NCBI GenBank assembly: GCA_002839355.1
Contig: PGXW01000004.1
Span: 1 to 64,000 of the forward strand
Direction of reading: 5' to 3'
Length of the DNA stretch: 64,000 nt
Origin: Spirochaetae bacterium HGW-Spirochaetae-2
GTDB lineage: Bacteria; Spirochaetota; Spirochaetia; Sphaerochaetales; Sphaerochaetaceae
The notes beneath the pieces were generated by a model. The model worked only from the letters and a program-made list of their open reading frames with translations. It did not search any database and was not told the DNA's origin. Both the position numbers and the translations under genes were made by a program. This document shows, one piece after another, positions 30,094 to 45,683 of the stretch (positions within the stretch are counted from its first letter, which is position 1; each line of letters begins with the position of its first letter).

Positions 30094-31390
30094 TGCAAGG
30101 CGGTGGTCCTTCGTAGAGGGCAAGGAACAGATTTTCGTTGTCGGAGGACTCCTATTCCTCTTCGTATTGCTGGTTACCCTGGTGCTGTTCCTCTCGCAAT
30201 TGATAATCGAGAAGGAGAACACCCTCATGCAGTTCGAGGCAGAGCGTGGATTCGCATCCTCGACCCTGCTGCTGTTGCAGGAGGAGCACTCGCGGGCATT
30301 GGAGGCCATGCGGGAAGGAAATGTACGGGGAATCGGCGTCTACTCCAACGCCGGACGGCTCATGCTCGGTCTCGGTTCGGTGCCCAATACCTTGCCGCTT
30401 GAACGTTTCAACATCATTTGGCGAAATAGGAATGCGAACCAATGGAACCAGGGGGTGGCAACCTACAACAAGGATACCGGCATGATCGAATACATCCGCT
30501 TCAGCCGCCTCACCATCCAGGTGGAGACCGGCGATATCATGCTGGAGGAAGACGGCTTCCTTCCATCGCCCTTGACGTTCCCCGATGTCCTCTACATCCT
30601 TTTCGACGGCCAGGATTATTTCCGCAAGGTCATGCTCGTACGTATCTTCAGCGCGGCGGCGGTACTTGGTCTGCTGGCCTTCCACCTGTTGGTCTACAGC
30701 ATCTATCGCAACAACCGCAAGTACCGGGAGACCTTGGCGAAACAGGAGAGTCTGGTAAATCTCGGTGAGGCCGCCCGTACGCTGGCACATGAGATAAAGA
30801 ATCCGTTGAGTGCGATAACCTTGCAGATGGCATTGTTGAAGAAGACCTTGCCGGTATCGGCCAAGGAAGACCTCATGGTTGTCGACCAGGAAGTGCAGCG
30901 GCTGACCCAGTTGACCAACAAGGTCTCCGATTTCCTGCGCAATCCCGTGGGTATGCCCGAGAAACTCGATATCGTTGCCCTGCTGGAATCGTTGCAACAT
31001 ACGTTCCAGGGAAAGCTGAAGTTCGCTCCCGGTTCGTTGCACCATGCCTATATCCATTTCGATTCCGACCGTGCCCGTTCGGTGTTCGAGAACCTGATCA
31101 AGAACGCGCTCGAAAGTTGCACCGATTGCGATCCCGAAGTGGAAGTGGAAGTCAGCCGGGACAAGCGGCATTCGATACATATCGCTGTGCGTGATCGCGG
31201 GGAAGGAATCCCCGAGCAAAACCTGGAAAAGATATTCGACCCGTTCTTCACCACAAAGATCCATGGTTCCGGAATCGGTTTGGCAATCTGCCGCCAGTTC
31301 GTCCGTGCCCGTGGTGGGAACCTGAAGCTCTACGCACGGGAAGGCGGTGGTACGGTTGCCGAAGTCATCCTTCCGTCGGTGCATGTATAG
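30086..31390 (+). CDS. Membrane sensor histidine kinase, NtrB-like
   Basis: The protein has 434 residues, with TM1 (about 16-38), a sensing domain of about 150 residues (no recognised fold), TM2 (about 190-210), then HisKA with LAHEIKNPLS (His 235) and a HATPase domain (NLIKNALES, DRGEGIP, GSGIGLAI). The AHEIKNPL box and lack of HAMP place it with the NtrB/AtoS group that partners sigma-54 response regulators. Start overlaps the permease. It is followed by its response regulator 9 nt later. Confidence 0.88.
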   Translation: MSSARRWSFVEGKEQIFVVGGLLFLFVLLVTLVLFLSQLIIEKENTLMQFEAERGFASSTLLLLQEEHSRALEAMREGNVRGIGVYSNAGRLMLGLGSVPNTLPLERFNIIWRNRNANQWNQGVATYNKDTGMIEYIRFSRLTIQVETGDIMLEEDGFLPSPLTFPDVLYILFDGQDYFRKVMLVRIFSAAAVLGLLAFHLLVYSIYRNNRKYRETLAKQESLVNLGEAARTLAHEIKNPLSAITLQMALLKKTLPVSAKEDLMVVDQEVQRLTQLTNKVSDFLRNPVGMPEKLDIVALLESLQHTFQGKLKFAPGSLHHAYIHFDSDRARSVFENLIKNALESCTDCDPEVEVEVSRDKRHSIHIAVRDRGEGIPEQNLEKIFDPFFTTKIHGSGIGLAICRQFVRARGGNLKLYAREGGGTVAEVILPSVHV

Positions 31391-31399
31391 GGGAAACCA

Positions 31400-32770
31400 A
31401 TGAGAATCCTGATTGTCGACGATGAATACAATATCCGTGAATTGATGCGCAAATACCTGGGTCTTGAAGGACTCGAGAGCGATGGTGCCGAGAACGGGCT
31501 TTCTGCCCAACGACAGCTCCGCGAGCACCACTACGATGCCTGCCTGGTCGATCTGAAGATGCCCGGTATGGACGGCATCAGCTTGATCCGGTGGATACGC
31601 CAGGAGGGGTTCCGCATGCCCGTCATCATGATCAGTGCACATGGTGAGATCCACGATGCGGTCACCGCTTTGAAAGAGGGGGCCCAGGACTATATCGTCA
31701 AGCCCTTCGATCCCGAGGAGCTGACCATACGGTTACGCAAACTTATGGAAGTCCAGCAGTTGCGGACCCTTGTGGAGACCAAGACACGCTCGACCGAGGG
31801 AATCGACGAGGGTCTTATCGGAGAGTCTCCTCCCATGTGTAAGATTCGGGAGATCATTTCCCGCATAGCCGACTCGCCGGCGACTGTGCTGGTGACCGGG
31901 GAGAGTGGAACCGGCAAGGAGGTCGTAGCCCGACAGATCCATGGAGTCTCCGCGCTTGCTGAGGGGCCGTTTGTCGCCATCAATATCGGAGGTGTACCGG
32001 AAAACCTGTTGGAAAGCGAGTTGTTCGGCTATGAAAAGGGTGCATTCACCGGTGCGGTAGGTCGCAAGATCGGCATGTTCGAGCTGGCAAGCGGCGGTAC
32101 GTTGTTCCTCGATGAAATCGGGGATATGCCGATGACGCTGCAGGTGAAGATGCTGCGTGTGCTCCAGGAGCGCAAGATCACCCGATTGGGCGGGACATCT
32201 CCTATTCCGATCAATGCCCGTATCATCGCCGCGACGAACAAGAAGCTCGAGGAGATGGTCCATGAGGGTTCTTTCCGCGAGGACCTCTTCTATCGGCTCA
32301 ATGTGGTACGTATCGAATTGCCCCCTTTGCGGGACCGCAGGGAGGATATTCCCCTGCTCGCCGGGGTCATACTCAACAAGCTCAACCGCCAGATGGGGCA
32401 CCGTGTCGAAGGTCTGTCTCCCGAAGCGATCGACGCACTGAAAGCCCATCCGTTCTACGGCAATGTCCGCGAATTGGAGAATATCCTTGAACGTGCGGTT
32501 ATTTTCGCCGACGGACCGGTGATCAAACCCGATGTCCTGGAATTGCGGGCCAGTATCTCCCGGCCAGGTACAGATATGGGACAATCCAACAGTACTTTGA
32601 TAGCTCAGGAAGACAATGGCGAGGCGCGCAGTCTCAAGGAACTTGAAGTTGAGGCTATCATCCGGGCCTTGCACCGGTGGGAAGGGAATCGGACCCGTGC
32701 CGCAGAGGAGTTGGGTATCTCCCGCAGGACATTGATAAACAAGATCGCGGAATATCGGTTGGATCTTTAA
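31400..32770 (+). CDS. NtrC-family sigma-54 response regulator
   Basis: The protein has 456 residues. The receiver domain has DD at 7-8 and the phosphoacceptor Asp 51 in LVDLKMPG. The AAA+ domain has GESGTGKE, the sigma-54-contacting loop GAFTGA (about 214-219) and the R-finger text. The C-terminal Fis-type helix-turn-helix is NRTRAAEELGISRRTLINKI. It should activate only sigma-54 promoters. The only such promoter seen in the window is at the start of its own operon, with two palindromes placed as enhancer sites. Confidence 0.92.
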   Translation: MRILIVDDEYNIRELMRKYLGLEGLESDGAENGLSAQRQLREHHYDACLVDLKMPGMDGISLIRWIRQEGFRMPVIMISAHGEIHDAVTALKEGAQDYIVKPFDPEELTIRLRKLMEVQQLRTLVETKTRSTEGIDEGLIGESPPMCKIREIISRIADSPATVLVTGESGTGKEVVARQIHGVSALAEGPFVAINIGGVPENLLESELFGYEKGAFTGAVGRKIGMFELASGGTLFLDEIGDMPMTLQVKMLRVLQERKITRLGGTSPIPINARIIAATNKKLEEMVHEGSFREDLFYRLNVVRIELPPLRDRREDIPLLAGVILNKLNRQMGHRVEGLSPEAIDALKAHPFYGNVRELENILERAVIFADGPVIKPDVLELRASISRPGTDMGQSNSTLIAQEDNGEARSLKELEVEAIIRALHRWEGNRTRAAEELGISRRTLINKIAEYRLDL

Positions 32771-32775
32771 ACCAT

Positions 32776-32793
32776 AATACCACAAAGGGTATA
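32776..32793 (+). promoter_or_regulatory. Orphan hip-type operator
   Basis: AATACC-ACAAAG-GGTATA matches the operators of the hipBST locus (TATACC-N6-GGTATA) at all but one half-site base. Its spacer differs from the second hipBST operator by a single base (ACAAAG vs ACAACG). It lies 6 nt after the response-regulator stop with no hip gene nearby. Confidence 0.5.
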
Positions 32794-32824
32794 TGCTATT
32801 AATAAACCTATGGTGTTGGTGATG

Positions 32825-32843
32825 GTACCCCATTATGGGGTAC
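32825..32843 (+). repeat. Perfect hairpin after efflux operon
   Basis: GTACCCCA-TTA-TGGGGTAC is an 8-bp stem with a 3-nt loop. No T tract follows, so it is not a typical intrinsic terminator; it could be a binding site or an mRNA 3' stabiliser. Confidence 0.5.
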
Positions 32844-32864
32844 AAGAGTGGATTAACTTTCAAT

Positions 32865-32984
32865 GGTTACTCTCCCGAGCGGGTGCAGGCAACGCAAGGA
32901 TCCATACCTCGCTCCTTGGGGCGCGGCAGAGGGGGTGAAGTATCCGGGGTCCAGGGCGTGCCCCGGGGTGGGGATACTTTTCAA
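32865..32984 (+). repeat. Dispersed hairpin repeat, copy C (5' truncated)
   Basis: It contains the family core CCGAGCGGGTGCAGGCAACG but lacks the left-hand AACGAAGCGAG part. The right half holds a strong hairpin, AAGTATCC (32938-32945) with GGATACTT (32972-32979), enclosing CCGGGG/CCCCGG. It lies in the 356-bp gap between the response regulator and the AraC-type gene; the rest of that gap shows no gene. Confidence 0.65.
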
Positions 32985-33126
32985 TTTTTACAGGAAGAAA
33001 TTACGTCTGTTATACCTTCGGAAAAATTGTATAGCAACAATATGAATGATGATGTAATTCTCCAGTCAATAAGCTTTCTTGTGTTTTTCTTGCAAATTCG
33101 AAGTAGTCGTTTATAAGATAGAAAGC

Positions 33127-34035
33127 ATGTCAGGTAGTCAGTTCTTTACCTATTTAACGTATGGTACCCGTGATGAGGCTTGGAAAATATTCTGCACCAA
33201 AGTGGGAAACCTACGCATGGAGCCGGACGAGAATTATCGCGAAGTATGGCAGGAACACTGGAAGGGTATTGGTAAGCCTTGGGAAGAGGGGACCTTGCGC
33301 CATGAATTCCAATGCATCTACATCACCCAAGGGACCGGATGGTTCAGCTATAAAGGGAAGAAACACCGTATCGTGCCAGGTACTATCATTACCCTTGTCC
33401 CCGGAATCCGCTATTGGTACGGACCCGACGACAACTCCAGTTGGACCGAGTACGTTGTGGGCTTCAAGGGTGAATATCCCGAGGATTTGCAACGATTGGG
33501 TTACTTCTCTGACGATAACGTAATCAAAGATGTCGGACTTCGGGAAGGCTTTGTCGGAATATTCACCGAATTGGTGGAGATAGCAAAGGAACAAAGGGCA
33601 GGTTTCCAACACGTACTTGGTTCGGATATCATGGTACTGTTGGCTAAAATCAACTACCAGACACAACAGGATTCACAACTTCACGAGCATGAACTTGAAC
33701 TGATCGAGCACGCGAAAATCAAATTCCAAGAACATCTTTATTCTACTTTGGATATTGAATCCATGGCCTGTTCGATGAACGTCTCATACACAACCTTCCG
33801 CGACATCTTCAAGAAGTATTCGGACTTGTCACCTTACCAGTATTTTCTTCAGATGAAGCTTAATAAAGCCAAAGAATTGCTATCTGAGGGGAATCTCACC
33901 GTAAAGGAAGTCTCGTTCAAACTCGCTTTCGATAACCCATACTACTTCTCCCGATTCTTCAAGAAAAAGTCTGGAGTCTCTCCCTCGAGGTGGAATGGTA
34001 GGGAGATCGAAACTGATTTGGACTTCCTGGAATAA
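33127..34035 (+). CDS. AraC-family transcriptional regulator
   Basis: This 302-residue regulator has an N-terminal cupin-like sugar-sensing domain (about 60-140, CIYITQGTGWFSYKGKKHRIVPGT). At the C-terminus are two helix-turn-helix motifs (about 200-295), with the AraC signature ...VKEVSFKLAFDNPYYFSRFFKKKSGVSPSRW. It precedes, in the same direction, a sugar ABC transporter whose promoter region has a direct repeat suited to AraC proteins, so it probably controls that operon. ATG 33127 is chosen; the Shine-Dalgarno is weak. Confidence 0.88.
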   Translation: MSGSQFFTYLTYGTRDEAWKIFCTKVGNLRMEPDENYREVWQEHWKGIGKPWEEGTLRHEFQCIYITQGTGWFSYKGKKHRIVPGTIITLVPGIRYWYGPDDNSSWTEYVVGFKGEYPEDLQRLGYFSDDNVIKDVGLREGFVGIFTELVEIAKEQRAGFQHVLGSDIMVLLAKINYQTQQDSQLHEHELELIEHAKIKFQEHLYSTLDIESMACSMNVSYTTFRDIFKKYSDLSPYQYFLQMKLNKAKELLSEGNLTVKEVSFKLAFDNPYYFSRFFKKKSGVSPSRWNGREIETDLDFLE

Positions 34036-34054
34036 CCCTCTCCGACATCATAAA

Positions 34055-34118
34055 TTTTGTGCATACAATCACCAAATTATGTGCATGGTATATTCTCCCA
34101 TACCATTTAAGCTATAGG
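34055..34118 (+). promoter_or_regulatory. Control region of sugar ABC operon
   Basis: A direct repeat TTTTGTGCAT (34055-34064) / TTATGTGCAT (34077-34086) has a period of 22 bp, as in AraC-type sites. Immediately downstream is an inverted repeat ATGGTAT-N8-ATACCAT (34085-34106). A TATAGG (34113-34118) may be the -10; no good -35 is present, as expected for an activator-dependent promoter. Confidence 0.55.
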
Positions 34119-34185
34119 TGCGGGATCATGACCAATAGAGCAGCAACACAAGCCTGGGGTCACGCTGCCAGGGAGGACCACAGCT

Positions 34186-35673
34186 ATGGCACAGAATATG
34201 TTCTTGAGAATGCACAATGTTTCCAAGACGTTTCCCGGTGTGAAAGCATTGAAAAACATCGATCTTGAAGTCGAATACGGCGAGATACATGCACTCATCG
34301 GTGAAAACGGGGCGGGGAAGTCGACCCTCATCAAGATTCTGTCGGGAGTCTACCAACCGGATGAAGGAGCTGAGATCATCATCGATGGAGTGGTCCAAAA
34401 GACAATCACCCCCTTGGATTCACTGAAACGTGGTATTGCTGTCATCTATCAGGATTTCTCACTATTCCCAAACCTCTCCGTTGCCGAGAACATCGCAATG
34501 GTATCGCGGGTCGAAAAACGGAAGAAGATTGTTAATTGGCGTGAAACAAACCAAATAGCTCGATCTGCACTGGCCAAACTAGGATTAAAGATACCCCTCT
34601 CCAAGACACTCTCCGAGCTTTCGGTCGCCAAACAACAACTTGTGGCCATTGCCCGGGCATTGGTGAACGACGCAAAACTAATCGTCATGGATGAACCGAC
34701 CAGTGCACTCTCACGTGGGGAGGTTGAATCACTCTTCTCCATCATCAGGAACCTGAAGGAGCAAGGGATATCCATCCTCTTCATTAGCCACAAGTTGGAC
34801 GAACTGTTCGCAATTTCTGACCGCTTCTCCATTCTCAGAGACGGAAAGTACGTCGGAACATTCGGCGAAGATGAACTTGATGACGATCGGCTTATTTCCC
34901 TAATGGTCGGACGCAAAATCGAATATAAAATTTTCGAAAAGCGGACTTTGGTCGACCCGATCTTCGAAGTACGTAACCTCAGCAAGGCAGGTAACTTCAA
35001 AGACATCTCCTTCACCCTCCACCGAGGTGAAATTCTTGGTATCACCGGTCTCGTTGGAGCTGGCCGGTCAGAGTTGGCCCAAGCCATCTTCGGACTCAAC
35101 CCAAGCGATAGCGGCGAACTGATCCTCGAGGGCAAGAGACTTCAGGTGAACGCCCCCGAACAGGCAGTCCAACATGGCATCTCCTACATCCCAGAGAACC
35201 GACTTACCGAAGGGCTCATCCTCAAGAAGACTATGAGCGACAATATCTGTCTGACTGTACTCAAGCAAATCTCCAGTAGACATGGTTTGATTGAAAAGGA
35301 GGCACAGAATAAACTGGTGGAGAAGTGGATCGAAGAGATGCACATCAGGCCCAATATACCCAATATGATTGCATCCAAGCTTTCAGGAGGCAACCAACAA
35401 CGGGTTGTGTTATCCAAATGGCTCGCTACCGATCCTAAGGTGCTGATTGTTGACGAACCTACCAACGGCATCGATATCGGCGCCAAAGCAGACATCCACC
35501 AACTGCTCAGAGATCTCTCCGAACAAGGCATGTCCATTATCGTCATCTCTTCGGAGCTTCCAGAGATATTGGCGATAGGAGACCGGGTACTCGTAATGCG
35601 GCGGGGAAAGATTGCAGCGATTTTGGATGGCAAGAACCTCACTCAAGAAGAAATCATGAAAGAGGCTTTGTAA
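34186..35673 (+). CDS. Sugar ABC transporter ATPase (RbsA/MglA type, two NBDs)
   Basis: The 495-residue protein carries two nucleotide-binding domains. The first is intact: GENGAGKST, MDEPTSALS, with LSVAKQQLVAIARAL as signature. The second lacks a normal Walker A (GLVGAGRSE) but has the signature LSGGNQQRVVLSKWL and VDEPTNGIDIG, as in RbsA/XylG/MglA. It energises the two following permeases. GGGAGGACCACAGCT precedes ATG 34186. It is the first gene of the four-gene transporter operon. Confidence 0.93.
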   Translation: MAQNMFLRMHNVSKTFPGVKALKNIDLEVEYGEIHALIGENGAGKSTLIKILSGVYQPDEGAEIIIDGVVQKTITPLDSLKRGIAVIYQDFSLFPNLSVAENIAMVSRVEKRKKIVNWRETNQIARSALAKLGLKIPLSKTLSELSVAKQQLVAIARALVNDAKLIVMDEPTSALSRGEVESLFSIIRNLKEQGISILFISHKLDELFAISDRFSILRDGKYVGTFGEDELDDDRLISLMVGRKIEYKIFEKRTLVDPIFEVRNLSKAGNFKDISFTLHRGEILGITGLVGAGRSELAQAIFGLNPSDSGELILEGKRLQVNAPEQAVQHGISYIPENRLTEGLILKKTMSDNICLTVLKQISSRHGLIEKEAQNKLVEKWIEEMHIRPNIPNMIASKLSGGNQQRVVLSKWLATDPKVLIVDEPTNGIDIGAKADIHQLLRDLSEQGMSIIVISSELPEILAIGDRVLVMRRGKIAAILDGKNLTQEEIMKEAL

Positions 35674-35674
35674 G

Positions 35675-36742
35675 ATGAACAACATTTTTTCACAAATCAA
35701 ACGGAGCAAGGAAATGGGCATCCTAGCAATCCTGGTGGTAATTTCCATCATTATTTCGGCTTTCAACAGCTCGTTTCTCACCTTTGGCAATCTTCTGGAT
35801 GTGGTGAAGAGCAATATCGTTTTAGGTATCATGTCGATGGGAATGCTCCTGGTGTTACTCACCGGCGGTATCGATGTCTCGATTGCATCGGTCATTTCTG
35901 CGGTAACAGTGATTATCGGTCGGTTCATGGTCGACTACTCATCCAATATCTTCCTCATCTTCCTGGTGGGAGTTGTCGCAGGATCACTTATGGGACTGAT
36001 TAATGGTTTGCTGATAGCTAAACTCAAAATTCCACCCATCGTTGCCACGTTGGGAACTATGAGTGTGATATTCGGATTGGTCCTCTACCTCACCAACGGG
36101 AACTGGATCACCGGCATCCCCCAGAATTTCATTGACTTCGGTCGTGTAACCATCGGGCAATTTCCCGTCGCGGGAAGTGACCGAATCCAAGGTATCCCGA
36201 TACAATTCCTTTTCCTATTGTTCGCTATAGCTCTCACTTGGTTCATCTTGAAATACACAATGATTGGCAGAGGTATCTACGCCATTGGCGGCAACAGAGA
36301 TTCGGCTGAACGTATTGGTATGAACAGCGAAAATATAACCTTGTTCATCTACACCTATGAAGGCTTCCTCATCGGTCTCGCGGGAGTCGTGCACACTTCG
36401 ATCATGCGACAGGTGGACCCCAACGCTTTCATCGGATTCGAGATCCAAGTAATCGCGGCAGTCGTGCTTGGTGGAGCTAGTGTCCTTGGTGGTTATGGTT
36501 CGGTGTCAGGAACCATCATAGGCGTCTCTCTCTTTTGTATCATCAACAATGGACTGATTCTCATGCACATTCCCACCTTCTGGCAGAAGATAGTAGTTGG
36601 TGTCGTATTGATCACATCCATCAGCTTCGATGTCATCCAGAAGCGTATGCACGATAAGAAAAATATCAGGGTTGATATAGACGAATCCGAATCGTCGTTC
36701 AAAAGACTCAGCGTAGTCCAAAAATCGACAAGCCAAGCGTAG
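35675..36742 (+). CDS. Sugar ABC transporter permease 1 (RbsC type)
   Basis: This 355-residue membrane protein has about 8-10 hydrophobic segments and the branched-chain/ribose permease signature GGASVLGGYGSVSGTIIG, plus LTGGIDVSIASV near TM3. The start follows the ATPase stop by 1 nt, implying coupling. The cytosolic tail is charged. Two different RbsC-like permeases occur in tandem here, as in the RhaPQ and LsrCD transporters where a heterodimer forms the channel. Confidence 0.9.
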   Translation: MNNIFSQIKRSKEMGILAILVVISIIISAFNSSFLTFGNLLDVVKSNIVLGIMSMGMLLVLLTGGIDVSIASVISAVTVIIGRFMVDYSSNIFLIFLVGVVAGSLMGLINGLLIAKLKIPPIVATLGTMSVIFGLVLYLTNGNWITGIPQNFIDFGRVTIGQFPVAGSDRIQGIPIQFLFLLFAIALTWFILKYTMIGRGIYAIGGNRDSAERIGMNSENITLFIYTYEGFLIGLAGVVHTSIMRQVDPNAFIGFEIQVIAAVVLGGASVLGGYGSVSGTIIGVSLFCIINNGLILMHIPTFWQKIVVGVVLITSISFDVIQKRMHDKKNIRVDIDESESSFKRLSVVQKSTSQA

Positions 36743-36766
36743 ACAAGGTATACGGAGGAGCAACCT

Positions 36767-37837
36767 ATGAACAAGGATATACAGAAGAATACCAAACAGA
36801 TAGGGGCGCCACAGAAGGAGAACCGGATGCGTCGATTGGTGAAGAAGGTACACTTGGATACAAAAGAGCTGGTGCTCCTCCAGCTCCTTATTGGTGTATT
36901 TCTGCTCATGTCGATCCTTTCTCCGGGTCGGTTTCTCAGTGTCTATAACTTGCAGTCCATGGCTTACCAGTTCCCCGAATTTGGTATATTCGCCCTTGCG
37001 ATGATGGTCATTGTGGTCACTGGCGGAATCAACCTCTCCATCACCTATAGTGCGACCTTATCCTCAATTCTCGGCGCAGTTGTCCTGGTCGCTTTGAACA
37101 ATTTAGGTGTCCAACCCCTTGTGACTGTTGTGATAGGTGTACTGGTGATCATTATCAGCTCCATCGCGTGTGGAGCTGTCAACGGCCTCATTGTTGCTCA
37201 CATCGGTATCACTCCAATGTTGGCGACCTTGGGAACCATGACGCTCTTCGAGGGAATCGCCTTGAACATCACCAAGGGGGGGGCTATATCGGGCTTCCCT
37301 GACATGTTTCAGTGGTTCGGCAATAGCGCTATCCTTGGAATCCCGGTGCCATTGCTTATATTTGTACTGGTCATCATCGCCACCTATTTCATTCTCCAAC
37401 GAAGTAGTTTCGGAGCTAAGGTGTACATGATTGGATGCAACCCAACGGCAACCCGATTCTCGGGAGTCAATGTCAAGAAGGTCCTGTTCCTGCTCTACAT
37501 CTACTCGGGAATCCTCACCGGATTCGCGGGCATCATCATGGCTTCGCGTTACAACTCGGCCAAGGAGTCCTACGGCTATACCTACCTCTTGCAAAGTGTA
37601 GCGGCCGCGGTCCTTGGCGGAACCGACATCTCCGGTGGTTTCGGTAAGGTCTTCGGGACAGTCGTCTCGGTGCTCATCCTCCAAGTCATCTCGAGCGGTC
37701 TAAATATTTTCGGAGTGAACCGCTTCATCACCGATGTCATCATGGGAATGATCCTCATCGTCGTGCTCACCATCAACTTCGTGAACAATAGGATGGAAGA
37801 GAAGGCGTTGTTAAGCAAGAAGGTAGTCACCGCATGA
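36767..37837 (+). CDS. Sugar ABC transporter permease 2 (RbsC type)
   Basis: This second RbsC-like permease has 356 residues, with a 40-residue Lys/Arg/Gln-rich cytosolic N-terminus. The signature is GGTDISGGFGKVFGTVVSV; TVTGGINLSIT-like text (VVTGGINLSITYSATL) marks TM3. It is 24 nt after permease 1 with GGAGGAGC before ATG. It likely pairs with permease 1 to form the channel. Confidence 0.9.
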   Translation: MNKDIQKNTKQIGAPQKENRMRRLVKKVHLDTKELVLLQLLIGVFLLMSILSPGRFLSVYNLQSMAYQFPEFGIFALAMMVIVVTGGINLSITYSATLSSILGAVVLVALNNLGVQPLVTVVIGVLVIIISSIACGAVNGLIVAHIGITPMLATLGTMTLFEGIALNITKGGAISGFPDMFQWFGNSAILGIPVPLLIFVLVIIATYFILQRSSFGAKVYMIGCNPTATRFSGVNVKKVLFLLYIYSGILTGFAGIIMASRYNSAKESYGYTYLLQSVAAAVLGGTDISGGFGKVFGTVVSVLILQVISSGLNIFGVNRFITDVIMGMILIVVLTINFVNNRMEEKALLSKKVVTA

Positions 37838-37869
37838 TTCGCTGACTTGCGATGCAATTTGGTTTGAGA

Positions 37870-37886
37870 AAACCCTGTTAGGGTTT
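37870..37886 (+). repeat. Intercistronic hairpin before binding-protein gene
   Basis: AAACCC-TGTTA-GGGTTT is a perfect 6-bp stem 27 nt before the start codon of the next gene. It may act as an mRNA processing or stability element that raises binding-protein expression relative to the permeases. Confidence 0.4.
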
Positions 37887-37913
37887 GGAAATATTTTTCA
37901 AAAGGAGAAAAAC

Positions 37914-38921
37914 ATGAAGAAACTGGTACTTAAAGCAACAATCCTTACCATGGCACTTCTGATGGTTGGTTCTGTTGTTTTCGCGCAGGGCCAGACAGCT
38001 GCACAAGATGATGAAATCACCATCGTTGTCATGCCGAAGTTGGTTGGAATTCCGTACTTCAATGCATCCGAAGTCGGTGCGAAGCAAGCTGGTAAAGACT
38101 TGGGCGTGAATGTCATCTACACCGGACCTTCCACTGCGGACGCGGCCCAGCAGGTCAGGATGATCGAAGATTTGATTGCAAAAGGAGTCGATGCCATTGC
38201 TGTCGCTCCCAACGACCCTGCTGCTTTGACACCTGTTCTGCGTAAAGCGAAACAGGCTGGAATACTCGTCCTCGACTGGGATACCCCTGCCGACCAGAGT
38301 GTCGTCGATTTGTCTATTCACCAGATTGATGACAAGGAGTATGGCCAACATATCTGGGACTTATTGGTCGAGGAGATGGGTGATACTGGAGACTATGCAG
38401 TCGTTACCGGTGGACTTTCAGCTGCCAATTTGAACGGTTGGATCGATCATGGTTTGGCATATGCCAAAACGCAGTATCCCCAATTGAATCTAGTCACCGA
38501 TCGTGTCCCCACCGATGAGAAACAGCAGATCGCCTACCAGAAAACGCTGGACTTGTTGAAGGCTTATCCTTCTCTCAAGGGTGTTGTCGGTGTCAGCACA
38601 CCTGCTCCTCTCGGTGCTGCTCAGGCTGTCCAGGAAAAGGGTGCTGCACAAAAGGTCGCAGTTGTTGGAACCGCTTTGCCGACCGATTCGAAGCCTTATC
38701 TTGAAGATGGCTCGCTCCGCGTGGCGACCTTGTGGGATCCCTCGAAGCTCGGTTATCTGACGGTGTATCTTGCAAAGGAAATGTTGGAAGGAAAGAAACC
38801 TGTTGATGGCCAAGATGTACCGAATGTCGGAAAGATTACCGTTTGGGAAGACGGAAAAACAGTCATCATGGGACCACCAACAGATTTCACGAAAGACAAT
38901 GCAGGTCAGTTCAGCTTCTAG
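37914..38921 (+). CDS. Sugar-binding protein, LsrB/RhaS-like
   Basis: The 335-residue precursor has a signal peptide (MKKLVLKATILTMALLMVG..., cleavage near VFA). The mature part is a periplasmic-binding-protein fold I. The phrase MPKLVGIPYFNASEVGAKQAGKDLGV and later APNDPAALTPVL, DWDTPAD place it near the LsrB (AI-2) and RhaS (rhamnose) group. A ketose 3-epimerase gene downstream suggests a ketose or deoxy-sugar ligand rather than AI-2, but this is inference. AAAAGGAG precedes ATG. Confidence 0.85.
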   Translation: MKKLVLKATILTMALLMVGSVVFAQGQTAAQDDEITIVVMPKLVGIPYFNASEVGAKQAGKDLGVNVIYTGPSTADAAQQVRMIEDLIAKGVDAIAVAPNDPAALTPVLRKAKQAGILVLDWDTPADQSVVDLSIHQIDDKEYGQHIWDLLVEEMGDTGDYAVVTGGLSAANLNGWIDHGLAYAKTQYPQLNLVTDRVPTDEKQQIAYQKTLDLLKAYPSLKGVVGVSTPAPLGAAQAVQEKGAAQKVAVVGTALPTDSKPYLEDGSLRVATLWDPSKLGYLTVYLAKEMLEGKKPVDGQDVPNVGKITVWEDGKTVIMGPPTDFTKDNAGQFSF

Positions 38922-38955
38922 GTTATACTGAAAACGTCATTAATGTCATTATGTT

Positions 38956-38992
38956 GAAACAGGCTTGTCCGCATTTTGGGCAAGCCTGTTTC
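38956..38992 (+). terminator. Stem-loop after binding-protein gene
   Basis: GAAACAGGCTTG and CAAGCCTGTTTC form a perfect 12-bp stem, extended inward by TCC/GGG. Only a short T run ends the stem (CTGTTTCC), so it may be a partial terminator that limits read-through into the epimerase remnant. Confidence 0.65.
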
Positions 38993-39023
38993 CAAATTAC
39001 TCGAACTGTCAAGGAGGAGAGCT

Positions 39024-39675
39024 ATGCGAAAGGTAGGAATCTACTATGCGTTCTGGACGCACGAATGGGATGTCGATTTTATCCCTTTCATCAAGAAAGT
39101 GGGAAAATTGGGATTTGACCAACTCGAACTGAACGGTGGGACGATTGTCCATATGAAAGCACAGGAACGATGCGATCTGAAACAACTTGCAGACGATCAT
39201 GGTATTGCACTCTCCTACGGTATTGGCCCCGTATGCCGGCGACCATAATGTTTTACTCAATGTCGAAGTCATCAATCGATTCGAACAGTTCTTGGTGAAC
39301 GACAGTCATGAGGCATTGGCCTATGTCCAAGAAGTCGATCATCCTTCTTGCCGTATTTTGCTCGATACATTCCACATGAACATTGAAGAGGATTCGTTCG
39401 GGGATGCTATCCGTCGGGTTGGACCCTACTTGGCAGCTTTCCATCTGGGAGAGACCAATCGAAAGACTCCCGGAACAGGTCGCATACCATGGGTTGAGAT
39501 CAAGCAAGCGTTGGATGATATCGGTTTCGATGGTCCCATGGTGATGGAACCATGTGTCATGCAAGGAGGATAGGTAGGACGGGACATTGGTGTATGGAGA
39601 GATATCGTGAAAGTTCCCGATCTCGATGCGTTGGCATCTGAATCGGCTAAATTCGTACGGGAGAATCTGGTCTAA
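39024..39675 (+). pseudogene. D-psicose/tagatose 3-epimerase family, decayed
   Basis: AAGGAGGAGAGCT precedes ATG 39024. Residues MRKVGIYYAFWTHEWDVDF, KKVGKLGFDQLELN and LADDHGIALSYGIGP match the start of ketose 3-epimerases. The frame then stops at 39246, while text from another frame (from about 39233) continues GDHNVLLNVEVINRFEQFL, LLDTFHMNIEEDSFGDAIR, HLGETNRKTPGTGRIPWVEI. About 75-80 family residues are missing at the join, so there was a deletion plus frameshift. A TAG at 39571 then interrupts before VGRDIGVWRDIV and the natural stop at 39675. It is inactive. Confidence 0.85.
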
Positions 39676-40035
39676 GTTTTTGCAACTATGAAAGGGTATA
39701 TGTCTTATAACAATTGGAGTCTTGTTTTCCAGCAATCATTATCTGCATTGACATCTTCCAGGACATATAAACAGTCGTGGAACATCACTATTCGATGAAT
39801 TTTTTAAACTACTTATCGCGGGGTATCTACTGGGTCTCTTAACCATAGTATATCAGAAATATCCCTTGAGTTATCCGATATTATCCGATATTATCCGATA
39901 GGATTGAGTGCCTGCCCCTGGAACTTCCTAGGCCCCATCAATCCTGAAGATCTCAAGGAGAACCTGCCACGAAGTACCGGTTTTCCTGACACTGTAAGTG
40001 TGGTGTCGTCCATAACCGATATTTACGATATGCCA
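39676..40035 (+). other. Intergenic stretch without a gene
   Basis: No supported gene. It holds a 10-bp tandem repeat (separate entry) and a short open frame (39904-40086) of unrecognised content, probably debris. It is AT-rich up to about 39900 and more GC-rich after. Confidence 0.5.
39871..39900 (+). repeat. Three perfect 10-bp tandem repeats
   Basis: TTATCCGATA is repeated exactly three times head to tail. The unit is close to one helical turn, so a protein could bind each copy on one face; polymerase slippage is the simpler origin. Confidence 0.75.
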
Positions 40036-40097
40036 GTTTCCTACAGGAACGGTCGATGCGGCTCACCGATTCGCTCGAACCATTGACCACAGTTGGA
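40036..40097 (+). repeat. Left direct repeat flanking hipBST (hipT 3'-end remnant)
   Basis: The 62-bp segment matches 41698-41759 at 52 of 62 positions. It encodes FLQERSMRLTDSL, the same C-terminus as intact HipT at the far side, but the stop codon is lost. It also carries the following promoter -35. It is the tail end of a second, lost hipT copy. Confidence 0.7.
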
Positions 40098-40111
40098 AAT
40101 AGTACTAAACT
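40083..40111 (+). promoter_or_regulatory. hipBST promoter
   Basis: TTGACC (40083-40088), 17 bp, TAAACT (40106-40111). The start site would fall in the first operator, fitting autorepression. Confidence 0.6.
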
Positions 40112-40210
40112 ATACCATATCGGGTATAAAAAGTCTGTTTACGCTAATAATATACCACAACGGGTATAAAAAATAGCAAAGATGCTTTACATTATACCCG
40201 GTCAGGTGTA
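40111..40210 (+). promoter_or_regulatory. Three hipBST operators
   Basis: TATACC-N6-GGTATA occurs at 40111-40128 and 40151-40168, and as TATACC-N6-GGTGTA at 40193-40210. Centres are 40 and 42 bp apart, about four helical turns, so dimers would lie on one face. A further half-site GGTATA (40216-40221) runs into the hipB start codon. Confidence 0.8.
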
Positions 40211-40220
40211 TTAATGGTAT

Positions 40221-40463
40221 ATGATGACAATCGGTGAATACATTAAATTCCGTAGACGACAAACTGGTCTTACCCAAGAAGAGTTTGCCTTCCGTTCGGG
40301 ATTGGGACTTCGTTTTGTGCGTGATCTGGAGCAGAACAAACCGACCGTACGTTTGGACAAGGTGAACCAAGCCTTGGGCATGTTCGGTATGCAGGCAGGC
40401 CCCGTACCTGCACAACGAAAGCAAACGGAGTCGGAGGGTGGTGGCAATGACACTACTTCGTGA
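40221..40463 (+). CDS. hipB: HipB, DNA-binding component of HipBST
   Basis: This 80-residue XRE-type protein has a helix-turn-helix (KFRRRQTGLTQEEFAFRSGLG..., about 10-45) and a short polar tail (QRKQTESEGGGN). In HipBST systems HipB binds the operators and augments neutralisation of HipT by HipS. ATG 40221 or 40224 may be used; the operator half-site GGTATA abuts the start. The end overlaps hipS by 17 bp. Confidence 0.85.
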   Translation: MMTIGEYIKFRRRQTGLTQEEFAFRSGLGLRFVRDLEQNKPTVRLDKVNQALGMFGMQAGPVPAQRKQTESEGGGNDTTS

Positions 40464-40779
40464 AGCTGTAGTCCAATACGACGGACAGGAGGCGGGTGTT
40501 CTCCAGGAAACGGATGAAGGGTATATCTTCACCTATTCGATCGGATACCTTCAAGACCCCGAGTCCAAGCCAATAAGCCTTACTATGAAATTGCGGGAAG
40601 ATTCGTACCACAGTAGTACGTTGTTTCCCTTCTTCGACGGTCTTATTCCCGAGGGTTGGTTGTTGGAAGTCGTCTGTGCGAATTGGAAGCTGGACCGCAG
40701 GGACCGCATGGGCTTGCTCATGACAGCGTGTAAAGACTGTATTGGTGCCGTATCTGTCCATGACAAGGTGGCAAGATGA
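40447..40779 (+). CDS. hipS: HipS, small antitoxin of HipBST
   Basis: The 110 residues correspond to the N-terminal subdomain 1 of HipA made as a separate protein: VQYDGQEAGVLQETDEGYIFTY, then LFPFFDGLIPEGWLLEVVCANWKLD and DRMGLLMTACKDCIGAV. In the E. coli O127 system HipS is the antitoxin proper. GGAGGGTGGTGGCA precedes ATG 40447. It overlaps hipB by 17 bp and hipT by 4 bp. Confidence 0.85.
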   Translation: MTLLREAVVQYDGQEAGVLQETDEGYIFTYSIGYLQDPESKPISLTMKLREDSYHSSTLFPFFDGLIPEGWLLEVVCANWKLDRRDRMGLLMTACKDCIGAVSVHDKVAR

Positions 40780-41741
40780 ACAGCCGATGTCTCTATTGTG
40801 GCAAGACCTTGACCGAAAATCGGCCGGATGGATGGCACCACAAGTGTGCCTTGGGATTCTTCCATACCGACAGCGTTCCAGAAATACCCATCACCCAGAA
40901 GTCCTTATCGGCATATGTCGAGCAATCTATTGGCAAGGCCTCTGCAGTCGTTCCTGGTGTTCAGCAAAAAGTATCGGTTCACATGGAACGCCAGGATGCC
41001 GAGTCCTTCCGCTTTACCATGGTGGGCAAGCCCCAAGGGTTTATCCTGAAACCGGGATCCGAAACCTATCCCCAATTGCCGGAGTGTGAAGCTGCGACCA
41101 TGCGGTTGGCGCAAGTATTCGGATTGTCTACGGTACCGTTTGCCTTGATCCGATTGCCCGACTCGACTCTGGCATATATAAGCAAGCGTATCGACAGGAA
41201 ATGGCAGGACCAAACTATCGTCGGAAACATTGCCATGGAAGATTTCTGCCAGCTTTCAGGCAGGATGACAGAAGACAAATATCGAAGTTCGTATGAAAAG
41301 TGTGCGACGATACTAAGCAAATACTCGGTACAGCCAGGTCTGGATATCACCGAATTTTTCATGCGTCTCATATTTTCGTTCATAACTGCAAATAGCGATA
41401 TGCATCTGAAGAACTTTTCACTCATTGAACAGCCGTGGGGCTGGACCCTTTCTCCGGCATACGATTTATTGAACACGACCTTGCTCCTCCCTGAAGATCA
41501 GGAGGAAACGGCCCTAACGCTCAATGGCAAGAAGCGAAGATTGCTGCGTAAGGATTTTATTCATTTCGGTGAACACATTGGAGTCCCGTCCCAGGCTGTT
41601 CTCCGCATCTTCAGGCAAGTGGAACTACTCCTACCCGATATGCTGAGAACCATTGAGGATTCCCATTTGTCTCCTTTCTTGAAAGTCGAATATTCCCGTC
41701 TCCTGCAAGAACGTTCAATGCGACTGACCGATTCGCTTTAA
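40776..41741 (+). CDS. hipT: HipT, split-type HipA kinase toxin
   Basis: This 321-residue kinase core lacks the HipA N-terminal subdomain. It begins with a Cys-x2-Cys...His-x3-Cys-like segment (RCLYCGKTL, then GWHHKC), a probable small metal site. The Gly-rich loop reads SAVVPGVQQKVS with one leading Ser; known HipT proteins autophosphorylate Ser in this loop. Catalytic NSDMHLKNFSL and metal-binding SPAYDLLNT are intact. HipT of E. coli phosphorylates tryptophanyl-tRNA synthetase; the target here is inferred only. ATGA overlap with hipS. Confidence 0.87.
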   Translation: MNSRCLYCGKTLTENRPDGWHHKCALGFFHTDSVPEIPITQKSLSAYVEQSIGKASAVVPGVQQKVSVHMERQDAESFRFTMVGKPQGFILKPGSETYPQLPECEAATMRLAQVFGLSTVPFALIRLPDSTLAYISKRIDRKWQDQTIVGNIAMEDFCQLSGRMTEDKYRSSYEKCATILSKYSVQPGLDITEFFMRLIFSFITANSDMHLKNFSLIEQPWGWTLSPAYDLLNTTLLLPEDQEETALTLNGKKRRLLRKDFIHFGEHIGVPSQAVLRIFRQVELLLPDMLRTIEDSHLSPFLKVEYSRLLQERSMRLTDSL

Positions 41742-41759
41742 CCATTGACCACACTTGGA
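41698..41759 (+). repeat. Right direct repeat flanking hipBST
   Basis: Counterpart of 40036-40097 (52 of 62 identical). It covers the last 14 codons of hipT, its stop and the pepF promoter -35. Recombination between the two copies would remove hipBST precisely while keeping the downstream promoter. Confidence 0.7.
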
Positions 41760-41774
41760 GTCAGCACGTACACT
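41745..41774 (+). promoter_or_regulatory. pepF promoter
   Basis: TTGACC (41745-41750), 18 bp, TACACT (41769-41774). Homologous to the hipBST promoter through the flanking duplication. Confidence 0.55.
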
Positions 41775-41809
41775 ATCGTGTATGTCCACATAGTCAAGGA
41801 GCACAGACA

Positions 41810-43597
41810 ATGGAAAAGTTGCCACATTGGAACCTGCAGAGCATATATGGCGCGATAGAGAGTCCCGAATTCGAACACGACCTGGCCAGCCTGGTGCCAC
41901 TGGTTGCCAAGCTCCGCAACCAGCTTGGCGATCTCGATGCCCAGCATGCCGATTTCCCCACGTGGTTGCTTGCCCTGTTGGAAACCTACCAGACCACACT
42001 CGATACCATAGAGACGCTCAACGCCTATGCCAGTGCACTCGTAACAGTGAATACCAACGATGAAGTGGCAATGCGGGGCCTGAATCGTGTCGAGGAAGCC
42101 GATTTGGCTATCAAAGCAATCCATGTCCAGGTGATCAACACCTTGGCACTCTACCGGCAATCGGTTCGCGATTCGATCAAACACGACGGGCGGATCGCCC
42201 CATTCCATTTTGTGCTTGAAGAGTTGCTTGAGGAGCAGGAGCACACCATGGGCGAAGCCGAGGAAGCCTTGGCAGCCGACTTGAACCGAAGTGGTGCCGA
42301 TGCGTGGGGGCGGTTGCAGGAAGCTGTCTCATCGAATGCGGATACGCTCTGGAATGCACAGACCGGTGAACGCAAGACGGTCATCCAGTTGCGGTCACTC
42401 GCCTTCGAGGCCGACCGGTCTATCCGGAAGAAAGCCTTCGATGCCGAACTGGCTGTATGGAAACAACACGAGGTTGCCTTTGCCTATGCGATCAATGGGG
42501 TGAAGGGAACCACCATCACCCTAGACAAACGGCGGGGATATCGCGATCCCTTGCAGCGTGCAACCATGCAGGCGCGCATTGACGATACGGTGCTCTCCGC
42601 ACTTATCGGTACCATCGAGAAGAATCTCGAGGTATTCCGTCGGTACCTGAGGGCGAAGGCACATTGCCTCGGTCTGCAGAAACTGGCGTTCTTCGACCTG
42701 TTCGCACCGGTCGGAGATCTGGACAAACGGTATTCGTACGACGAGGCCAGGGCGTTTATTGTGGAGAACTTCAGCACTTTCCACCCGCCTTTGGGCAGTT
42801 TTGCAGAAAAGGCCTTTGAAAAGGGCTGGATCGATTGCGAGCCCAGGGCCGGGAAAGTCGGAGGTGCGTACTGCACGTCCTTTCCGCTTCGGAAGGAGAC
42901 GCGAATCCTCGCCAATTTCGACCATAGTTTCGACGGAGTCTCGACAATTGCCCATGAATTGGGACACGCCTACCACGACCAGATCACCAGCGACTTGCCC
43001 GCGCTTCTTCGCCATTATCCCATGACATTGGCCGAAACCGCTTCGATCTTCAGCCAGTTCATCATTTTCAAGGGGGCGCTCAAGGAAGCTTCGGAACCAG
43101 AGCAGCTTGCGTTGATCGAAAGCTTCCTGCAAGATGCGACCCAAACCTGCGTCGATATCCTCAGCCGATTTTATTTCGAGCGGGAATTGTTCCGCGTACG
43201 GGTCGAGGGGGATATTATGGCAGGGCAACTATCTGCTATGATGGTGGATGCCCAGAAAGCCAGCTATGGCAATACCTTGGATGAACAGGCCTTGCATCCC
43301 TACATGTGGGCGGTAAAGGGACATTACTATAGCAGCGACCTCTCGTTCTACAACTTCCCGTATGCCTTCGGGCAACTGTTCGGTCTTGGTGTCTATAGTC
43401 TGGCACAAGCCGATCCTACAAATTTTGGAGCCAGGTACGACGCGTTGCTGTTGCAGACTGGGCAAGATACCGCTTGTGCGGTAACCGCATCTGTCGGTTG
43501 TGATATTACCACTGAAGACTTCTGGCAACAGAGTGTGGATGTCATCTCCAGTTACGTTGATGAATTTTGTCGGCTTGCCGGCTATACAGGAGTATGA
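41810..43597 (+). CDS. pepF: Oligoendopeptidase F family metallopeptidase (M3)
   Basis: This 595-residue cytosolic zinc peptidase has the active-site motif AHELGHAYH (HExxH, about residue 382) with the downstream ETASIFSQ Glu, typical of M3B oligopeptidases. The N-terminus LPHWNLQSIYGAIESPEF fits PepF-type clostridial/spirochaete members. It would trim peptides of the sort an Opp system imports. AAGGAGCACAGACA precedes ATG. Its TGA overlaps an in-frame ATG of the next gene. Confidence 0.9.
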   Translation: MEKLPHWNLQSIYGAIESPEFEHDLASLVPLVAKLRNQLGDLDAQHADFPTWLLALLETYQTTLDTIETLNAYASALVTVNTNDEVAMRGLNRVEEADLAIKAIHVQVINTLALYRQSVRDSIKHDGRIAPFHFVLEELLEEQEHTMGEAEEALAADLNRSGADAWGRLQEAVSSNADTLWNAQTGERKTVIQLRSLAFEADRSIRKKAFDAELAVWKQHEVAFAYAINGVKGTTITLDKRRGYRDPLQRATMQARIDDTVLSALIGTIEKNLEVFRRYLRAKAHCLGLQKLAFFDLFAPVGDLDKRYSYDEARAFIVENFSTFHPPLGSFAEKAFEKGWIDCEPRAGKVGGAYCTSFPLRKETRILANFDHSFDGVSTIAHELGHAYHDQITSDLPALLRHYPMTLAETASIFSQFIIFKGALKEASEPEQLALIESFLQDATQTCVDILSRFYFERELFRVRVEGDIMAGQLSAMMVDAQKASYGNTLDEQALHPYMWAVKGHYYSSDLSFYNFPYAFGQLFGLGVYSLAQADPTNFGARYDALLLQTGQDTACAVTASVGCDITTEDFWQQSVDVISSYVDEFCRLAGYTGV

Positions 43598-43602
43598 AAA
43601 GC

Positions 43603-44778
43603 ATGGAATTGCGACTTGAAATTGAAAAATTGGTCTCCAAGGGCGATGGCCTCGCCCGTCACGAAGGGAAAACGATATTTGTCACGGGAGCGCTCCCGGG
43701 TGAGACGGTTCTCGCCGAAACGATTGAGGACAAGGGAGACTACTCCCGTGCGGAAGTAGTCGAGATCGTCACCGCATCGCCCGATCGTGTCGTTCCCGCC
43801 TGCCCGCATTATGGAGTGTGCGGTGGTTGCGATATGCAGCATGCCACTACCGAAGCCCAAGCTGTCCAGAAGTCCTTGATTGTTCAGGAGAACCTGTTGC
43901 GTATCGGAGGCATCGACATCGATAGCGAGGCCGAGGGCATCACCACCTATCCCGTTGCTTCGGCTCAGGGTTGGGGGTATCGGACCAGGGTGAAGTTCCA
44001 TGTGGATCTTGAACAGAAGAAGGCGGGTTTCCTGGGCCGCAAGAGCAATGACCTCGTCGATATCCGCCACTGTCCGATCTTGTGCGATTCATTGAACAGG
44101 TTGTTGGATGAGAAGCGCCCCTTGCTGTTCAGAGCTGCACAGATGCGTCAGAAAAGTGAAATTTGGCAAAAACGCAATGCCTTGATAGAGGTACCGGCAT
44201 TCGCCGGTGATACGAAAGTCTCCCTCAGTACACAGGAAGTCGCAGTCGAGGTGGCGGGAAAGACCCTATGGGCCGATTCCAATGTATTCTTCCAGGCGAA
44301 TAGACAGGTGTTGCCGGCAATGGTCGATTTTGTGAAGAACCACGTCGAGGGGAAGACCATAGTCGATCTATACGCCGGAGTCGGTACATTCGCAGCTTTT
44401 CTCGAAGGTCCGGACAGACAAGTCGTAGCGGTCGAGCGGGACAAGCGATGCCTCCAGCTGGCTGAGAAAAATCTATCCCATACCGAATTTTTCCCGCAGA
44501 CAGCTGAACACTGGGTCAGGATGCAGAAGGACCGACAGGTCGATACTGTGATCGTGGACCCGCCGAGGACAGGATTGGATGCGAAGGTAATCGGTGCGAT
44601 TTGCAGTTGGAAACCATTGTCGGTTGTCTATGTCTCCTGCGACAGCGTCACGTTGGCTCGTGACTGCAAGAAGTTTGCCGAAAAGGGGTTCAAGGTGAAG
44701 GCACTGCAGGTGTTCGACCTCTACCCGCAGACTTCGCATGTTGAGGCGGCCGTACTGATATCGAGGGTGGATAGCTAA
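43603..44778 (+). CDS. RNA m5U methyltransferase, RlmD/TrmA family
   Basis: The 391-residue protein has an N-terminal TRAM domain (MELRLEIEKLVSKGDGLAR), a Cys cluster C-x5-C-x2-C (CPHYGVCGGC) plus a later HC that can hold a 4Fe-4S cluster, the SAM motif IVDLYAGVGTFAAFL, DPPRTGLD and the catalytic VSCDSVTLARD. The cluster favours RlmD-like 23S rRNA targets over TrmA. ATG 43603 is preferred: AGGAG is 10 nt away, whereas it is only 1 nt from the alternative ATG 43594. Confidence 0.85.
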   Translation: MELRLEIEKLVSKGDGLARHEGKTIFVTGALPGETVLAETIEDKGDYSRAEVVEIVTASPDRVVPACPHYGVCGGCDMQHATTEAQAVQKSLIVQENLLRIGGIDIDSEAEGITTYPVASAQGWGYRTRVKFHVDLEQKKAGFLGRKSNDLVDIRHCPILCDSLNRLLDEKRPLLFRAAQMRQKSEIWQKRNALIEVPAFAGDTKVSLSTQEVAVEVAGKTLWADSNVFFQANRQVLPAMVDFVKNHVEGKTIVDLYAGVGTFAAFLEGPDRQVVAVERDKRCLQLAEKNLSHTEFFPQTAEHWVRMQKDRQVDTVIVDPPRTGLDAKVIGAICSWKPLSVVYVSCDSVTLARDCKKFAEKGFKVKALQVFDLYPQTSHVEAAVLISRVDS

Positions 44779-44813
44779 CACTAAAGGTATTGCAGTGGGG
44801 GAGGAAGGTTTCC

Positions 44814-45683
44814 ATGGGATTGGCGGTGTATTTTTTCTCCGGGACAGGAAATACCTATATATTGGCAAACCAGATCGCAGAAAAATTCGAAACGGCCCCC
44901 ATTTCGATTCCGAACATCATGCACGGGGAAAAAATTCATGTCGATACTGGTGATATGTGCATTGTCTTCCCTTGCTACATGGCCACACTGTCGGGATTGC
45001 CGTTGATTGTCGAGAGATTTGTCAGGAAGATAGACAACCTCGGGGAAGTCACTCTTTTTGCGGTTTGCAATTGCGGGGGGTACGAAATCGTCAATGCGCT
45101 CCCCTCGTTGCACCGACTGAGGCAGATTGTCGAATCCTGCAACGGGAAACTGTATGCAGGGCATTCTCTGAGACTTCCCATGAACAACCTGGATTATGAC
45201 CATATTCCGATTCCCATAAACAGGAATAGCGAGGACATAATCCGAAAGGCAAAAATACAAACGGACCGTATCTCTGCCATGATACGTCAAAGACGTAGGA
45301 CACGGTTCGCAATTCCCAAGAACCTGTTCTCCCTTGTTATGAAACCGATGTACGGCATGATCAACAATGCCGTGATGCGGGAGCTGAGGATTCGTGCTCA
45401 CGAACCGGATGACAGTCGGTTGCACTACGATGAACTAATACCGTTGACCGACAAGAGTATTGTTGTCGATGGTACATGTACTGGTTGCGGAATCTGTGCG
45501 AAGCTTTGTCCTGTGGACAATATCAAGCTGGTGGACCGGAAGCCGGAATTCCAGCATGCATGCGAAATGTGTTTTGCCTGCGACGAATGGTGCCCGACAG
45601 GTTCCATCCACCATTGGAGTAGGGCTCGTGGGGTCAAGTACCACCATCCTGAAGCGATTCCCAGGAATTTTTTCTATCGATAA
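44814..45683 (+). CDS. EFR1-type flavodoxin-ferredoxin fusion
   Basis: The protein has 289 residues. The N-terminal flavodoxin-like domain has FFSGTGNT for FMN phosphate binding. The C-terminal part carries two 4Fe-4S motifs, CTGCGICAKLCPVDNI and CEMCFACDEWCPTGSI. Such EFR1 proteins are electron-transfer components, often of anaerobes. GGGGGAGGAAGG precedes ATG 44814. It lies 35 nt after the methyltransferase gene, possibly in one transcript. Confidence 0.85.
   Translation: MGLAVYFFSGTGNTYILANQIAEKFETAPISIPNIMHGEKIHVDTGDMCIVFPCYMATLSGLPLIVERFVRKIDNLGEVTLFAVCNCGGYEIVNALPSLHRLRQIVESCNGKLYAGHSLRLPMNNLDYDHIPIPINRNSEDIIRKAKIQTDRISAMIRQRRRTRFAIPKNLFSLVMKPMYGMINNAVMRELRIRAHEPDDSRLHYDELIPLTDKSIVVDGTCTGCGICAKLCPVDNIKLVDRKPEFQHACEMCFACDEWCPTGSIHHWSRARGVKYHHPEAIPRNFFYR

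Follow-up and report, generated by a model that had tools for sequence, protein, structure and literature searches.

A lone hipBST-type operator behind a response regulator gene as the probable relic of a hipBST insertion

An operator-like palindrome that stands alone behind a response regulator gene is probably a relic of a duplicated hipBST operator, marking the original left end of a hipBST insertion. It lies in a window of 64,000 nucleotides (the whole stretch of DNA that was analysed) from the 3.62-Mb genome of Spirochaetae bacterium HGW-Spirochaetae-2 (G000), which we compared with its sister genome, the metagenome-assembled Spirochaetae bacterium HGW-Spirochaetae-4 (G001). The explanation is ordinary but well supported; it describes a tidy genomic scar, not a new mechanism, and changes no general principle. 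It does suggest that a lone operator can record the former place of a toxin-antitoxin operon. Counts of the motif alone would dismiss the orphan, which becomes understandable from the junctions seen in a neighbouring species.

The orphan palindrome and the hipBST operators

The orphan occupies positions 32776–32793 of the plus strand, where the 18 bp read AATACCACAAAGGGTATA (AATACC-ACAAAG-GGTATA). Its first base lies 6 nt past the stop codon of a gene for a sigma-54-type response regulator (RR; 31400–32770, plus strand; Response_reg, Sigma54_activat and HTH_8 domains). The closest hipBST operator, O2 (TATACC-ACAACG-GGTATA; 40151–40168, plus strand), reads TATACCACAACGGGTATA. Letter by letter, the two differ by one half-site base and one spacer base, and the spacers agree at five of six positions; from start to start they are 7,375 bp apart. 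Both the similarity and the separation of 7.4 kb were thus correctly given in the initial annotation. A small correction concerns the hip genes: the window also contains a second HTH-HipA gene pair, at 17124–18628. The products of this pair have 102 and 399 amino acids and carry HTH_3, Couple_hipA and HipA_C domains; no TATACC-N6-GGTATA site with up to two mismatches was found within 1 kb before it.

The hipBST locus (40111–41741, plus strand) consists of the operators O1 (TATACC-ATATCG-GGTATA; 40111–40128), O2 and O3 (TATACC-CGGTCA-GGTGTA; 40193–40210), spaced 40 and 42 bp apart and identified by palindrome scan, matrix and the arrays of relatives, followed by three consecutive overlapping genes. 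The first, hipB (40221–40463), encodes an HTH protein with Legionella HipB as its best PDB match (E 5e-6) and with profile matches just below the cut-off (Pfam HTH_3, 22 bits against a cut-off of 23, and NCBIfam couple_hipB). The second, hipS (40438–40779), resembles the HipA N-terminal domain and best matches Legionella HipS (E 2e-18), and the third, hipT (40776–41741), encodes a HipA_C kinase that best matches Legionella HipT (E 8e-47). Couple_hipA was found only in 40438–40779 and HipA_C only in 40776–41741, i.e. the kinase lacks the HipA N-subdomain 1. The order hipB-hipS-hipT and the likeness of HipS to the N-terminal part of HipA are shared with HipBST of E. coli O127:H6, as described in the available text of PMC6581861, PMC10627512 and PMC8262856. 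HipT is closer to the Legionella protein than to that of E. coli (E 8e-47 versus 3e-11). It also lacks the double-serine motif that the O127:H6 protein has at its Gly-rich loop. The loop has no S-aliphatic-S sequence and reads SAVVPGVQQK, with V and P at the places of the two autophosphorylated serines of E. coli HipT, counted from the loop glycine. Among 16 relatives, Thr stands at the first of these places in 12 and at the second in four. A large fraction of HipT proteins, though not every one, is reported to carry the motif, and it is not a defining requirement for hipBST membership. We regard the operon assignment as well founded, while the toxin and antitoxin roles of HipT and HipS are predicted from sequence.

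Matches to hipT at E≤1e-20 occur in 21 of 139 genomes of the family, G000 included. Close hipT genes (90–100% identity) were found only in G000 and G001 among the 139, and the next one has 47%. Operator arrays were read, with up to two mismatches, at the 16 better loci (L051–L066) of the 22 found outside G000 (L051–L072). Fourteen of the 16 carry three or four TATACC-N6-GGTATA sites before hipB, 40–41 bp apart; the exceptions are L064 with one site and L065 with none, and the six weaker loci (L067–L072) have at most one site each. This comparison with relatives indicates that the hipBST operators are real, and it provides an operator consensus for hipBST of this spirochaete family: arrays of TATACC-N6-GGTATA, mostly 40–41 bp apart.

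The orphan does not belong to an array of this kind, with its three or four sites spaced 40–42 bp apart. There is no second site at +40, the nearest site with up to two mismatches is 1.3 kb away (at 34099), and the orphan does not stand in a hipB promoter, being followed by a dispersed repeat and then araC. A second palindrome at 32825–32843, GTACCCCAT-T-ATGGGGTAC, might be taken for a second operator in decay; this was rejected because its centre lies about 50 bp from that of the orphan, compared with 40–42 bp in the array, and because its half-sites do not fit in their spacing. We also scored the sites with an operator matrix trained on 43 operators from 14 of 15 other hipBST loci in other genomes. 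O1 scored 23.9, O2 20.9, O3 18.2 and the orphan 16.2, which places it fourth in the window and within the range of the training operators (15.6–30.4). In one simulated 3.6-Mb genome no site reached this value. The score is near the bottom of those of true operators, and we count this against the orphan as a relic.

Junctions between the response regulator gene and pepF

In many relatives, the right-hand neighbour of RR is a gene for a pepF-like M3 oligopeptidase, found in the window at 41810–43597 (plus strand) and assigned by synteny, with Pfam Peptidase_M3 seen on the G001 ortholog only. A search with the RR protein over 41 genomes gave 30 loci, many of the matches being other sigma-54 regulators. 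Leaving aside G000, G001 and L019, whose flank is too short, 27 relatives were readable. In 14 of these, among them G002 of the same genus, a pepF match begins 9–127 bp after the matched RR end, and RR identity is at least 64% in all 14. One further locus (L014) has the pepF match at 932 bp, and the flanks of the other 12 show no such match; in eight of the 12 the RR protein is only 44–60% identical and may not be orthologous. In the window, 9 kb lie between RR and pepF and hold the orphan, the repeat, an AraC gene, a sugar importer, a broken epimerase gene, a hipT tail, O1–O3 and hipBST. In the 200 bp behind RR, a site with up to two mismatches is present in none of the 27 relatives, while G000 and G001, which bear the insertion, both have one. 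This indicates that the site arrived with the insertion. A plain RR-hipBST-pepF order was not found in any of the 139 family genomes.

The junctions on the right-hand side of the inserted genes differ between the two species, with an RR 3′ end upstream of O1 in G001 and a hipT 3′ end in G000. The 57-bp RR 3′ end through TAAAC (32716–32772, plus strand) has a second, perfect copy upstream of hipBST O1 in G001. This copy equals the RR gene of G001 itself at 57 of 57 bases, including three positions where G000 differs, and runs through TAAAC into O1 (TATACC-GTATCG-GGTATA) without a gap. At the genuine RR gene of G001, the stop codon is followed by TAAAC, CAT and then the orphan, AATACC-ACAAAG-GGTATA. 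Relative to the RR 3′ end, the orphan therefore has the position that O1 has at the other junction, save for an offset of 3 nt. An allele with O1 directly behind RR must thus have existed, unless the contig is misassembled; a single metagenome-assembled contig (PGXU01000012.1) is the only one to show this junction. Locus L073, likewise from this genome, has the same letters wherever it was compared, which covered the initial 2 kb of L040 and 200 bp at the junction.

In G000, the same spot upstream of O1 holds the degraded remnant of another hipT 3′ end and the intergenic bases that follow it (40028–40097, plus strand), with 83% identity over 70 bp to 41690–41759 (E 9e-17 against a 1.8-kb subject). 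Since its stop codon is changed, it is not a gene. Its simplest source would be a tandem hipBST copy that has lost its interior. The initial annotation had proposed that the orphan may be the footprint of a lost hip locus. That part of its claim is supported by the adjacency of RR and pepF in relatives, the RR 3′ end at O1 in G001 and the hipT remnant beside O1 in G000.

The following course of events would account for these junctions. From an ancestral RR-pepF order, as seen in relatives, hipBST with its operator array would have entered between the two genes, placing O1 a few nucleotides behind the RR stop, as the RR-TAAAC-O1 junction of G001 suggests. The hip locus would then have been tandemly duplicated, which would explain the hipT 3′ end and the start of the hipT/pepF spacer fused to TAAAC-O1 in G000. 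The interior of the left copy may have been replaced by, or lost with the arrival of, the block of AraC and sugar ABC genes, which would leave an operator behind RR at the left and a hipT tail at the right. We infer this order of events (tandem duplication, block insertion), and likewise that the orphan was the first operator of the left copy, descended from O1 rather than from another operator of the array. Among the array operators its spacer is nearest to that of O2. That only one operator survives at the left also counts against a relic. HipB, by homology a predicted autorepressor acting through O1–O3, may still bind the stranded site. If it does, the relic would be a natural case in which to ask whether stranded operators have any effect at all.

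The 3′ ends of RR in G001 and of hipT in G000 are fused to O1 within the same few bases and share TAAAC. This could mean that recombination recurs at the boundary just upstream of O1 and that the O1–O3 array is the left end of a mobile hipBST unit. On landing behind a gene, such a unit would capture or duplicate that gene's 3′ end, and the orphan would be an occupied-site scar of the movement; we give this proposal only a slim chance. A promoter-like sequence, TTGACC-N17-TAAACT (40083–40111, plus strand), ends on the first base of O1 and has its -35 element in the duplicated hipT/pepF intergenic sequence. The scan of 39850–40300 found 2 matches versus 1.3 in shuffles, and this putative promoter is suggestive only; no promoter-like match was found at the corresponding O1 position of G001. 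The duplicated spacer piece bears the -35 TTGACC of the apparent pepF promoter, which reads TTGACC-N18-TACACT in common with G002 (alignment judged by eye). Since the -35 element stems from the duplicated spacer, hipBST may have gained a new promoter through the duplication, in the G000 species only. Around the orphan, no convincing hip promoter match was found other than the site itself.

Frequency of the motif and alternative explanations

A search of the whole genome with the O2 18-mer and up to three mismatches returned four matches, namely O2, the orphan (2 mismatches), O1 (2) and C55:23753 (3), whereas the reversed control returned 3+7. The bare palindrome TATACC-N6-GGTATA with up to two mismatches has 8 matches in the window versus 0.97 in shuffles, an excess that arises because the window contains the hipBST promoter; genome-wide, there are 131 matches versus 197 for the reversed pattern. 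With up to one mismatch, the 3.62-Mb genome of G000 has 21 sites versus 17 for the reversed control, and G001 has 19 versus 13. First-order shuffles of the window give 0.05 such sites per 64 kb, or about 2.8 expected per genome. As the shuffle null and the reversed-pattern null disagree, we preferred the stricter, reversed one. Motif counting was therefore set aside as a sole test of the orphan, there being no clear genome-wide excess over the reversed control. The initial annotation had named many such sites at chance frequency as evidence against its claim, and for the motif alone this is what was found.

These counts are the main argument for a chance palindrome with no history shared with hipBST. 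In addition, among the 21 sites of G000 with up to one mismatch, the list on which the genome-wide scoring was done, five non-hip ones have higher matrix scores than the orphan. Four of them lie within coding-length open frames (295–631 codons). The fifth, C60:68256, lies outside all frames that reach 150 codons and has only a weak HipB-like tblastn match (E 0.005) next to it. We considered the five as further hip footprints and rejected this, since no clear hip remnant was seen at any of them. One site, C66:4992, matches the motif exactly and recurs in G001 with all 18 letters unchanged; it falls inside frames of at least 100 codons. Six of the 21 sites are in hip promoters (three at hipBST, three on C2) and 15 remain, including the orphan. 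At 15 non-hip sites per 3.62 Mb, the probability of one in a given 21-bp stretch is about 9e-5, a figure for a stretch that was picked after the site had been seen. While the bare motif is near chance frequency, the position of the orphan is not: it stands where G001 joins the second RR 3′ end to O1, the RR genes of the 27 other relatives have no such site behind them, and five of its six spacer bases are those of O2. We thus consider a chance origin unlikely.

A second alternative is a functional remote site, at which HipB, alone or with HipS and HipT, would act as a roadblock behind RR, repress a neighbouring gene or form a loop to O1–O3. In E. coli K-12, HipB reportedly acts on several promoters, and solitary HipB-like palindromes away from hipBA are said to have been proposed as regulatory. 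Those sites reportedly lie in promoters, whereas the orphan lies behind a stop codon and looks like a relic. In favour of a functional site, the two species agree at all 18 positions, in the half-sites as well as in the spacer. The comparison of G000 and G001 shows no change in the 30 bp 32771–32800, and 6 of 51 and 11 of 143 positions changed further downstream. At the local rate, zero changes in 18 bp are only weakly unlikely, and the conservation would be a weak sign of function. The available text of PMC10653801 reports that Legionella HipB binds its operators in vitro, including variants without full symmetry, and binding of the orphan by HipB may occur here as well. The hipBST operators of relatives, however, stand in arrays 40–41 bp apart, whereas the orphan is single. 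The promoter-like match that overlaps the orphan is on the minus strand and within chance (1 found versus 1.1 in shuffles), and no plus-strand match is present at the site. Moreover, 285 bp and the dispersed repeat lie between the orphan and the AraC open frame. Hence the other option of the initial annotation, an additional site through which HipB would act on the AraC/efflux region, was unsupported, and the name of the region needs amending: the AraC gene precedes a sugar-uptake ABC operon. Efflux-type genes lie upstream, at about 25.5–30.1 kb, with a kinase/RR pair (HlyD by domain, the others by inspection). Taken together, we hold a functional remote site to be quite improbable.

The orphan might finally belong to another XRE-type regulator, such as the HipB of a hipBA-like locus on contig C2, where sites with the same half-sites (e.g. 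AATACC-TTTTGG-GGTATA) precede an HTH-HipA pair; given that these sites form a tight array 25–27 bp apart while the orphan is single, and that its spacer is close to that of hipBST O2, this is hardly credible. The C2 array itself (G000:C2:19523–19619; L048 2524–2620) comprises four similar palindromes directly upstream of the gene pair, more tightly spaced than the hipBST operators.

An RNA hairpin or terminator was also considered as the reason for the palindrome and rejected: the 223 nt from the RR stop fold little better than shuffles, with a z-score of -1.34 and 23 of 200 shuffles as good or better. In Rfam, the single match listed for 32300–33300 has an E value of 0.66 and is not at the orphan.

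Related systems and the inserted block

The closest published parallel that we found is in Legionella pneumophila. Its hipBST operon has three evenly spaced 18-nt operators with 6-nt inverted repeats upstream, and elsewhere in that genome the operator motif was found at no place but in front of a pentapartite system, an occurrence that the authors ascribe to a putative duplication, according to the accessible portion of PMC10653801. The two systems share three operators of 18 nt with 6-nt half-sites and 6 nt between them, the last value being obtained for Legionella by subtraction. As described in the same portion of PMC10653801, the middle of the Legionella operators is largely conserved and the gaps are 53 bp, whereas the operators studied here vary in the middle and have gaps of 22–24 bp (compared by description, not by letters). 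The additional Legionella motif lies upstream of the pentapartite system, while the extra site here has no hip genes behind it (PMC10653801, available text). Our literature search found no publication on a toxin-antitoxin operator remnant stranded by an insertion; we do not claim that such a case is unpublished.

Between the orphan and the AraC gene, a copy of a dispersed intergenic repeat was recognised by genome matches at 32861–32986 (plus strand). The repeat has at least 44 matches in G000, this copy counted, at least 49 in G001 and one in G002, a third species of the genus; fragments were counted, and 40 candidates were scored in each of G000 and G001. It is about 125–165 bp long, some copies having a tandem sub-unit of about 89 bp, and it also occurs at 54269–54328 and 16744–16800. 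A terminator-like stem within the repeat, at 32961–32973, compares with 0.6 in shuffles (1 found).

The first gene of the inserted block encodes an AraC-family regulator (33079–34035, plus strand; domain profile). At E≤1e-60 it has no relatives among the 139 family genomes outside G000 and G001, and the outer limits of the block are therefore not readable from a donor; an assignment of the block to a known element was considered and set aside. The sugar ABC importer genes follow at 34186–38921 (plus strand), with an ATPase (34186–35673), two permease-like open frames named from position and inspection only (35675–36742 and 36767–37837) and a substrate-binding protein (37914–38921). Divergence between G000 and G001 per 250 bp is 0–2% at 33050–35799 and 0.4–10% at 35800–39799, compared with 4–11% on the RR side (30800–33049) and 2–14% on the hip/pepF side (40050–46049). 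The low divergence of 33050–35799 relative to the flanks points to a probable recent exchange of this stretch between the species, which blurs the dating of the events. Downstream of the importer genes lies an interrupted epimerase-like gene (38976–39573, plus strand), in which a D-psicose 3-epimerase profile matches 39187–39573. Compared with G001, about 200 bp have been deleted from it, between two ATTGGCC repeats.
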